64,000 nt of DNA from Dyella sp. 2HG41-7. GTDB taxonomy: Bacteria; Pseudomonadota; Gammaproteobacteria; Xanthomonadales; Rhodanobacteraceae. Below the pieces are notes generated by a model. It saw only the letters and a program-made list of their open reading frames with translations, had not been told where the DNA came from and made no database searches. The first letter of the stretch is position 1. Every line of letters starts with the position of its first letter. The stretch is taken from the NCBI RefSeq assembly GCF_021390675.1, contig NZ_JAJEJV010000004.1:1-64000 (forward strand), given 5' to 3'. This document shows, one piece after another, positions 38,472 through 40,144 of this stretch. A program made the position numbers and the translations under genes.

Positions 38472-39005
38472 ATGGCGAAGCTCGTATTCGAATTGAACCA
38501 GTCGCTGGATGGCTACGTCGACCACATGCAATTGGGGCCGCCCAGCCCGGCGCTCGCGCTTCACTTCCTTGAGCGCGTACGTAGCCTGACGGGCATGGTG
38601 TTCGGTCGCAATATGTACGAGATCATGCGCTATTGGGACGAAGACCAGCCCGACTGGGACGCGGGAGACCACGACTTCGCCGCGATATGGCGCAGCAAAC
38701 CGAAGTGGGTCGTGTCGAGCTCGCTGACGTCGGTCGGCCCCCAAGCCACCCTAGTCGCCAATGACCTGGAAGCGAAGGTCCGAAAACTGAAGGCCGAGCA
38801 GCCAGGGGAGATCGCAGTCGGCGGACCCGACTTGGCGCGAAGCCTGGGCGACCTTGGCCTGGTCGATGAATATCGCCTCTACATTCAGCCCGTGGTGCTT
38901 GGACACGGCACACCCTTTTTCGCCGGCCCGCGATCGCGGCTCCGCCTCGTCGCCAGCGATGTGATGGGCGACGACGTGATCAGGCTGACGTACGCACCGG
39001 CTTAA
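38472..39005 (+). CDS. dihydrofolate reductase-like protein (RibD C-terminal family)
   Basis: A 177-residue protein. MAKLVFELNQSLDGYVDHM is the usual N-terminus of the family, with VFGRNMYEIMRYW, KWVVSSSL, the cofactor glycine motif IAVGGPDLARSLGDLGLVDEYRL and VLGHGTPFF. Such proteins are NADPH-binding reductases of unknown substrate, not true FolA. The ATG follows GGAG. It stands alone before the small-RNA locus. Confidence 0.87.
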   Translation: MAKLVFELNQSLDGYVDHMQLGPPSPALALHFLERVRSLTGMVFGRNMYEIMRYWDEDQPDWDAGDHDFAAIWRSKPKWVVSSSLTSVGPQATLVANDLEAKVRKLKAEQPGEIAVGGPDLARSLGDLGLVDEYRLYIQPVVLGHGTPFFAGPRSRLRLVASDVMGDDVIRLTYAPA

Positions 39006-39053
39006 TCGCACGACGCCTTCCATCAAGTTACACTTTATTAATGTACCGAGAGG

Positions 39054-39059
39054 TATAGT
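39054..39059 (+). promoter_or_regulatory. candidate -10 element of the plus-strand small RNA
   Basis: TATAGT lies 7 nt before the first predicted hairpin. The -35 region is weak (CACTTT at 39031-39036 with 17-bp spacing). Confidence 0.4.
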
Positions 39060-39065
39060 TATCCC

Positions 39066-39172
39066 ATGTCGAGAGACATCAGTCCCACCGCTTAGCCGGG
39101 CCTCCCCTCCCCGCCAAGCAGCGTAAAGAAGGATGACCCAAAGCCCGCAGGCCTCCCCCTGCGGGCTTTTTT
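39066..39172 (+). ncRNA. candidate small RNA with C-rich loops and strong terminator
   Basis: A 107-nt unit in the 278-bp gap before marR. It contains hairpin 1 ATGTC/GACAT with a GAGA loop (39066-39079), hairpin 2 (39090-39119) with an apical loop CCTCCCCT (39101-39108), and a terminator hairpin whose 11-bp stem AAGCCCGCAGG/CCTGCGGGCTT (39141-39151 with 39158-39168) encloses the loop CCTCCC and ends in six T (39167-39172). A TATAGT -10 stands just upstream. No open frame fits. The exposed CCUCCC loops are complementary to ribosome-binding sites, as in Xanthomonas sX13. Family membership is inference. Confidence 0.6.
39141..39172 (+). terminator. strong intrinsic terminator
   Basis: An 11-bp GC-rich stem with a 6-nt loop is followed by a run of six T. 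The preceding gene's stop is 135 bp upstream, so it most likely ends the small RNA rather than the reductase mRNA. Confidence 0.92.
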
Positions 39173-39238
39173 ATGGCCGGCAGTGGTCTAACGATCCCGG
39201 CTGCCACGCCAAGCTCAGGCGTTCGATCGCCCAATTCA

Positions 39239-39270
39239 CAAGATAAACTTGCAAGATAGACTTCTAATAT
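39239..39270. promoter_or_regulatory. repeat overlapping the marR promoter
   Basis: CAAGATAAACTT (39239-39250) and CAAGATAGACTT (39252-39263) form a 13-bp-spaced direct repeat, and the first is also an inverted repeat (CAAG-N5-CTTG). TAATAT (39265-39270) could be the -10. This is a plausible autoregulatory operator for the MarR protein. Confidence 0.45.
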
Positions 39271-39283
39271 GTAGGGTAGACAC

Positions 39284-39727
39284 ATGTCTCCTGCCCCCGC
39301 ACCGAATGCGTCCGTTGAAACCGCCGTCAGCGAACTCACGGCGGCCGTCAGCCAGCTTTTGCGGCGCCTGCGCACGCACGCCAATCCGAACGAACTCAAC
39401 CTCTCGCAGCTCGGCACCCTCGCGCGACTCGATCAATTCGGCGCGATGACCACCGCGGATCTGGCCCGCGCCGAGTCGATGAAGCCGCAATCGATGGGCA
39501 CCATTCTCGCGAGCCTGGAACAAGAAGGCTTGGTGGAACGACAGCCGCATCCCACCGACGGTCGACAGATTCTTTTCGCGCTCACCGCCGCGGGTGCACA
39601 GATGCGCCGCCAACGCGGCCTCGCCAAGCGCGAATGGTTGATTGCGGCGATGACGAAGCTGGAGCCCACAGAGCTCAAGACCATCATCGATGCGATTCCG
39701 TTGATCAAACATTTGGGCGAGTCGTAG
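39284..39727 (+). CDS. MarR-family transcriptional regulator
   Basis: A 147-residue winged-helix protein: LNLSQLGTLARLDQFGAMTTADLARAESMKPQSMGTILASLEQEGL is the recognition-helix region, and ERQPHPTDGRQILFALT is the wing. It precedes a small membrane protein and an MFS drug pump, the usual layout for a repressor of efflux. A repeat overlaps its promoter. Confidence 0.92.
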   Translation: MSPAPAPNASVETAVSELTAAVSQLLRRLRTHANPNELNLSQLGTLARLDQFGAMTTADLARAESMKPQSMGTILASLEQEGLVERQPHPTDGRQILFALTAAGAQMRRQRGLAKREWLIAAMTKLEPTELKTIIDAIPLIKHLGES

Positions 39728-39811
39728 CGACCAACTCGCCGAACGTTTTCTCGTGCTGGACGTTTCCGTCAGCGCGTCTCTCATGCTGGCTCTAAACAGG
39801 ACGGCAATCTC

Positions 39812-40144
39812 ATGAACTGGCTGCACGATCTCTCTTATTTTTTCGGCGGCATTTTTCTGTCGAACGCCATCCCGCATTTCGTAAGCGGCACGATGGGACG
39901 TCCGTTTCAGTCCCCATTTGCGAAACCGCGCGGAGAAGGTCTTTCGTCGTCGACGGTCAACGTACTTTGGGGCTTCGCCAATTTCGTCCTGGCGTATTTG
40001 TTGATTGTTTGCGTTGGCCAATTCGATATTCATGCCGCGCAAATGATGATCTCACTTGGTCTGGGCGCATTGCTGATCGCTTTGTTCGCCGCAAGGCATT
40101 TTGGCCGCTTCCACGGCGGCAATCTTCACACCGATCACTCATGA
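39812..40144 (+). CDS. small conserved membrane protein
   Basis: A 110-residue protein with three hydrophobic segments (about 7-24, 48-68 and 74-94); NWLHDLSYFFGGIFLSNAIPHF is its most distinctive part. A histidine-rich tail (HFGRFHGGNLHTDH) could bind metal. It overlaps the MFS gene start by 4 bp (ATGA), so it is translationally coupled to that pump. Function unknown. Confidence 0.8.
   Translation: MNWLHDLSYFFGGIFLSNAIPHFVSGTMGRPFQSPFAKPRGEGLSSSTVNVLWGFANFVLAYLLIVCVGQFDIHAAQMMISLGLGALLIALFAARHFGRFHGGNLHTDHS

Follow-up and report, generated by a model that had tools for sequence, protein, structure and literature searches.

A conserved small RNA candidate with anti-Shine-Dalgarno loops and a changing genomic place in Dyella and its relatives

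The Locus and Its Predicted RNA

We analyzed a window of 64,000 nt of Dyella sp. 2HG41-7 (NZ_JAJEJV010000004.1) in which a RibD_C-domain gene (ending at 39005) and a MarR-family gene (starting at 39284) lie on the same strand and flank a gap (39006-39283, plus strand) holding a -10 element, three hairpins and a terminator. The initial annotation had described here a plus-strand small RNA (sRNA) candidate with a promoter-like -10, three hairpins, a strong terminator and two loops complementary to ribosome-binding sites (RBS). All of these parts are present, at the following positions:

39027-39046, plus strand: upstream box kept in relatives, reading GTTACAnnnnATTAATGTAC in this genome and standing in for a consensus -35
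39053-39061, plus strand: -10 region GTATAGTTA, hexamer TATAGT at 39054-39059; mean identity 0.86 over 30 rows
39065-39172, plus strand: predicted sRNA transcript; 31-sequence alignment A2 with 44 invariant columns; covariance model R1
39066-39079, plus strand: hairpin 1, GNRA tetraloop GAGA (GTGA or GCGA in relatives)
39083-39089, plus strand: UCCC (39083-39086, invariant) followed by ACC
39090-39119, plus strand: hairpin 2, C-rich anti-Shine-Dalgarno loop CCTCCCCT at 39101-39108 (CCUCCCCU in RNA letters)
39127-39133, plus strand: linker motif AGAnGGA, invariant columns of A2; GAnGGA invariant in genus g11 too
39140-39172, plus strand: intrinsic terminator, 12-bp stem, hairpin 39140-39169 and T run to 39172
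39152-39157, plus strand: terminator loop CCTCCC, the second anti-Shine-Dalgarno loop

The transcript would start at 39065-39067, 6-8 nt past the -10, and end in the U run. Model R1 scores 116.2 bits at this locus (39065-39171). The stretch 39066-39173 folds with an energy of -38.8 kcal/mol (z -3.4), which none of 200 shuffled sequences matched, and the fold computation gives mean unpaired probabilities of 0.96 for loop 2 and 1.0 for the terminator loop. The UCC of 39083-39086 may also pair with GGA at 39131-39133 and close a multiloop; this pairing appears in minimum free energy folds and in the separate fold of alignment A3 and is absent from the predicted fold of A2.

The upstream box consists of GTTACA, four variable bases, ATTAAy, two bases and AC. 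At the usual distance from the -10 it is poor as a sigma-70 -35 element, and it is probably a contact region for an activator or for RNA polymerase. A simple sigma-70 scan called no promoter at the 5′ end of the sRNA and only one at 39235; the -10 is nonetheless conserved. The box pattern TTACNNNNNATTAAYNNAC occurs once in the genome, at the sRNA locus, and without a second copy we rejected a regulon defined by this promoter box. Also rejected as genes were two mechanically called minus-strand frames (112 aa, 39079-39417; 268 aa, 39236-40042), which had no Pfam matches at E ≤ 1. A 9-codon frame starting ATGTCGAGA was discarded as a conserved short peptide because TGA closes it at codon 3 in the GTGA-loop variants.

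Conservation, Covariation and Distribution Among Relatives

Sequence conservation spans the promoter box to the terminator and drops on both sides. Over 30 rows, mean identity rises from 0.35 upstream of the box (38998-39022) to 0.77 in the box (39023-39046). The spacer (0.47), the -10 region (0.86) and the RNA (0.76-0.93) follow, and beyond the RNA identity falls to 0.44. A Mycobacterium stretch (L062) and a copy cut by a contig end (L046) were excluded from this profile, from A2 and from the multi-genus neighborhood comparison described below; two decayed copies (L019 and L020) were excluded from the latter two. Across the 31 sequences and 44 invariant columns of A2, the loop-2 segment UCCCCUCC (39103-39110) is invariant in every row, and standard pairs fill 95.7% of the 741 pair cells. 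Two-sided changes occupy 72 cells compared to 25.2 in shuffled alignments (0 of 500 as high) and 2-14 in six slid controls. Two other measures are weak: 10 of 24 pairs show a two-sided change where shuffles give 7.3 (a count reached in 15 of 500), and there are 24 further pair types where shuffles give 23.5 (reached in 254 of 500). In hairpin 2, five of the eight pairs show two-sided change, and its outer helix is paired in 87.1% of cells.

Aligning the gap across relatives, the check proposed with the initial annotation, thus revealed compensatory changes in all three hairpins, and hairpins beyond the terminator are kept across the 31 sequences. These comparisons identify the locus, as first annotated, as a predicted sRNA gene rather than a bare terminator, because a plain terminator would not give conservation from box to terminator together with covariation. 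Lying between two same-strand genes, the element could also be merely a terminator or 3′ untranslated region belonging to the gene before it, or a leader to the gene after it. Yet the unit is kept with its own promoter box in 13 neighborhoods in 14 genomes, and we consider such a reading very improbable.

A DNA search of 61 genomes matched 16 of them: 14 of the 16 genomes of the same genus, one of genus g20 (nearly full-length, 75% identity) and G023, in which only the terminator matched. Scanning one genome per species (84,980 species) with a pattern retrieved 29 stretches, 14 in Dyella, 11 in Rhodanobacter and one each in a Rhodanobacteraceae genome, a Lysobacterales bin, a Candidatus Eremiobacteraeota bin and Mycobacterium, the last (L062) without alignment outside the pattern. 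The contig labeled Candidatus Eremiobacteraeota (L050) carries the sRNA, and its label is probably wrong. Among 233 genomes of the family, R1 found matches at E ≤ 0.01 in 70 and of at least 40 bits in 58, distributed over Dyella (g1; 14 genomes, of 16 in the genus) and genera g14 (8), g18 (22), g11 (12), g7 (1) and g20 (1). The Dyella sp. 2HG41-7 genome has a single copy; three copies of at least 40 bits were found in G012 and two each in G011, G201, G021 and G136. Twelve genomes fell under 40 bits and four of these were read: G148 (34.1 bits) holds a family member, and the weak matches L262, L263 and L264 were set aside as unrelated bare terminators.

UCCCA, the loop core UCCCCU and GAnGGA are present in every one of the 14 homologues read from the distant genus g11. 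In hairpin 1 the stem letters are exchanged and a GNRA-type loop is kept, and a GTATAnT -10 is recognizable in nine of the 14. Among the papers listed in literature searches, judged by titles and abstract openings, none dealt with an sRNA from Dyella, Luteibacter or Rhodanobacter, which is no proof of absence.

Relation to sX13 and Other Known RNA Families

No Rfam family reached its gathering cut-off in the 64,000-nt window. The nearest was the alphaproteobacterial ar14 (RF02344), with 29.5 bits against a cut-off of 58.8 (E 0.0013 in a 601-base search). The genome as a whole has no ar14 match at E ≤ 0.001, and only one of 20 homologue loci had one at E ≤ 0.5 (27.4 bits), in a 62-kb search that is thus stricter. 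The alpha-r14/NfeR1 family (RF02344) is, we presume, the 'cuckoo' RNA. Like it, the Dyella sRNA carries CCUCC anti-Shine-Dalgarno motifs in two places, one hairpin loop and the loop of the terminator. Silencing by anti-Shine-Dalgarno pairing around the translation start is the action of ar14, and the window sRNA may work in a like manner. The definition of ar14, however, requires CCUCCUCCC to be unpaired in all three of its hairpins (PMC10746234), and the Dyella RNA lacks this motif in its three loops, which read GAGA, CCUCCCCU and CCUCCC.

As a separate observation, a genome of the same order (G054) has three ar14 matches (109.7, 93.7 and 88.3 bits, at L030 and two other places) far above the cut-off, which is unexpected for a family named alphaproteobacterial. 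In G037, G043, G049, G053 and G058, weak ar14 matches (32.8-43.6 bits) are found no more than 300 bases from the polA match, which suggests that in other families of the order this model recovers RNAs resembling sX13.

The initial annotation had proposed a member or a functional analogue of the Xanthomonas sRNA sX13. Membership did not hold: the sX13 model (RF02232) was not listed for 38800-39400 at E ≤ 5, and a separate, real sX13 lies downstream of polA in the same genome (L071, 2800-2912; 51.3 bits vs. the RF02232 cut-off of 50). An sX13 was also found at the polA site in four of the 19 other polA loci scanned. Model R1 scores the sX13 of Dyella sp. 2HG41-7 at 10.4 bits (E 0.21). In the 2013 description, sX13 is always downstream of polA and is recorded in Xanthomonas, Xylella, Stenotrophomonas and Pseudoxanthomonas (PMC3771888); the true sX13 found here is in a Dyella genome.

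Both RNAs are compact, of about 110 nt, with three hairpins and exposed C-rich loops, and G-rich motifs near the start are the targets of sX13 (PMC3771888). The two differ, however, in several respects. The window sRNA has no significant sequence match to sX13, scoring under the 50 bits of RF02232, and its gene sits between the RibD_C-domain and MarR-family genes instead of downstream of polA. Whereas the sX13 loops carry 4C, 4C and 5C, loop 1 of the window sRNA is GAGA, GTGA or GCGA, a GNRA and not a CCCC loop. Its position also varies, unlike that of sX13, fixed at polA according to the same paper (PMC3771888). C-rich loops and a similar length might still suggest sX13 itself, moved to a new site; the genuine sX13 that this genome has beside polA and the lack of a significant cross-match between the two models refute this, and we give it practically no credence. 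Since a separate sX13 occupies the polA site, this genome carries two unlinked C-rich RNAs, the window RNA being the second. It may work like sX13, which represses G-rich targets without Hfq, though it is not sX13; the likeness seen here is one of complementarity.

The pairing of a C-rich loop with a G-rich leader also recalls HPnc5490 of Helicobacter and the UCCC-loop RNAs of Staphylococcus, e.g., RNAIII, as portrayed in PMC3771888, a likeness by description and not by sequence between unrelated hosts. Its exposed, conserved, RBS-complementary loops place the RNA in the functional class of C-rich anti-Shine-Dalgarno sRNAs, by complementarity and not by activity. In our view the RNA forms a new family, though of a known kind, without an Rfam match at cut-off and with an unusual change of genomic place.

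A Self-Contained Unit at Changing Genomic Places

We compared neighborhoods through the frames in the 1400-base flanks of the best copy in each of 14 congeneric genomes, trimming 100 bases per edge. The synteny controls were only two genes, hppA and polA, both strongly conserved; polA was compared on its downstream side only, as its upstream flank lies inside the gene. The sRNA occupied 13 neighborhood groups in the 14 genomes and shared a neighbor in 1 of 91 pairs, compared to a single group for the 13 hppA loci (63 of 78 pairs). Restricted to the downstream side, the counts were 13 groups for the sRNA (1 of 91 pairs), three for hppA (39 of 78) and three for polA (11 loci, 36 of 55). Across several genera, 30 loci fell into 23 groups, the flank of some loci being short at one end. 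The sRNA gene is a self-contained unit of about 150 bp found at different genomic places in different species.

Genome G005 keeps the SDR-F420-RibD_C gene row of Dyella sp. 2HG41-7 and has a decayed sRNA copy between the second and third genes; in Dyella sp. 2HG41-7 the intact copy follows the third gene. A decayed copy lies 3.9 kb from the intact one in G002, and two copies are 2.6 kb apart in G012. Set against the decayed copy L020, the segment 38277-38461 that separates the F420-domain gene from the RibD_C gene shows a T-rich stretch that resembles the terminator tail and is possibly an older remnant of the sRNA. A mobile vehicle was sought in plasmid, phage and viral collections (the viral scan being one exact pattern) and gave no match.

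Tentatively, and with more doubt than confidence, these patterns could reflect a riboregulator family, absent from Rfam, that wanders within one bacterial family as a cassette of about 150 bp that reaches from the promoter box to the terminator. Such a cassette would relocate, duplicate and decay, keep its promoter and loops, and tune TonB-receptor synthesis beside a fixed sX13. The changing address is unusual, and the locus lends itself, as a small system, to studying how sRNA genes relocate as whole units, promoter to terminator.

Candidate Targets and Proposed Mechanism

TonB receptors are outer-membrane proteins and are numerous in Dyella sp. 2HG41-7, with 39 Plug-domain matches. We compared these 39 genes with 240 others drawn from the window and sixteen 20-kb samples, receptors removed. 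The comparison followed the sight of three receptors in a pattern search and the idea of the initial annotation and was therefore not blind, start codons were chosen crudely and the receptors are paralogues; with these limits, 7 of 39 receptors and 0 of 240 other genes carry, in their ribosome-binding zone, a stretch of ≥8 nt complementary to loop 2; for ≥7 nt the counts are 13 of 39 and 2 of 240. Of 1000 shuffled loops, 5 equalled the real loop 2 at ≥8 nt, as did 10 when the threshold was ≥7 nt. Examples of the receptor sites are GGGAGGGGAG (L165), GGGGAGGGG (L160) and GAGGGGAGG (L174). The 16S anti-Shine-Dalgarno showed no excess in receptors (4/39 vs. 28/240 at ≥6), and the terminator loop had complements in 0 of 39 at ≥8 nt and in 4/39 vs. 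4/240 at ≥7. Loop 2 of sX13 was enriched as well (4/39 vs. 0/240 at ≥8 nt). The part of the initial proposal that stands is therefore the functional analogue, which the enrichment of loop-2 complements at receptor RBS makes plausible. Its picture of sX13 pairing with G-rich start regions, TonB-receptor mRNAs included, agrees with the published report as to the G-rich regions and departs from it for the receptor XCV3572, whose level is lower in the sX13 mutant, so that it is no repressed target there (PMC3771888).

Taking the computed conservation, structure, loop exposure and complementarity together, we favor (with a probability of about 0.6) a trans-acting sRNA of about 108 nt with its own promoter and terminator, whose loops would block G-rich RBS, TonB-receptor mRNAs being the best target class. 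We infer transcription, pairing in the cell and repression along the following lines. Transcription would start from the sRNA's own promoter (conserved box plus -10), presumably with a dedicated activator at the upstream box, and is predicted to end at its own terminator. The GNRA-capped hairpin 1 would shield the 5′ end. Two loops, CCUCCCCU in hairpin 2 and CCUCCC in the terminator, would stay single-stranded and pair with purine-rich RBS. Pairing would then block translation of the target mRNA, and TonB-dependent receptor mRNAs would be reached through loop 2. Most likely, the sRNA acts through loop 2 to repress mRNAs with G-rich RBS. To a genome that bears sX13, the sRNA would add a second, unlinked C-rich regulator with a clear candidate target class in the TonB receptors.

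The presence of a true sX13 in the same genome, and the enrichment of both its loop 2 and loop 2 of the window sRNA against TonB-receptor RBS, would also fit a competitor or sponge, whose C-rich loops, by mimicking those of sX13, vie for its G-rich mRNAs or cross-regulate them, or whose hairpins titrate an RNA-binding protein instead of pairing with mRNA. We find this unlikely, for loop 2 of the window sRNA fits the receptors better than any sX13 loop (7/39 vs. at most 4/39 at ≥8 nt), and the invariance of UCCCCUCC in 31 sequences is what pairing would lead one to expect.

Returning to the trans-acting repressor, we compared receptor sites in genomes with and without it. Complements of at least 8 nt were found in 20 of 122 receptors in four genomes with the sRNA and in 8 of 96 in four without it, across three genera (p 0.058). 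The difference came from Dyella (14/67 vs. 2/42, p 0.017), with no difference in g14 (3/27 vs. 3/28) or g18 (3/28 vs. 3/26). Complements of sX13 loop 2 were also commoner in the sRNA-bearing genomes (36/122 vs. 17/96 at ≥7), and the altered loop of g11 was matched in 2 of 30 receptor genes. The genomes without the sRNA and the g11 result weaken the receptor signature as proof of targeting. Because genomes without the sRNA also show such sites, TonB receptors are leading candidates, not demonstrated targets, and the signature would be older than the window sRNA or shared with it. As an observation on the receptors themselves, their RBS often read AGGGGAG or GGGAGGGGAG in several genera (G000, G010, G110, G202, G009, G028 and G032), a type unlike that of the other genes sampled in Dyella sp. 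2HG41-7.

That the signature occurs without the sRNA, and that hppA and further genes match too, would suit a real sRNA with another regulon (ABC transporters or a two-component system, for example, as for NfeR1), the receptor matches reflecting nothing but their G-rich RBS. The sampled non-receptor genes argue against it, with 0 of 240 at ≥8 nt and 2 of 240 at ≥7 nt in a sample covering a minority of the genome's genes; we consider this reading less likely than not.

Two further leads were followed and dropped. The strongest single loop complement (11 nt) is in hppA, which we rejected as a prime target since GGGGAGG-type sites are general in the 30 hppA loci read, including genomes without the sRNA. 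The motif GGAGGGGAG occurs 56 times in the genome vs. 12 for the reversed pattern; as a count of targets this too was rejected, because most occurrences are a palindromic repeat: 30 of the 56 loci were read, and in 23 of them the motif is preceded by CCC and followed by AG. The repeat, CCCCTCACCCC..CCCTCTCCCCGGAGGGGAGAGGGAG (e.g., L102, L107, L113 and L122), contains a segment exactly complementary to a portion of loop 2, and copies that are transcribed and stay unfolded might serve as decoys.
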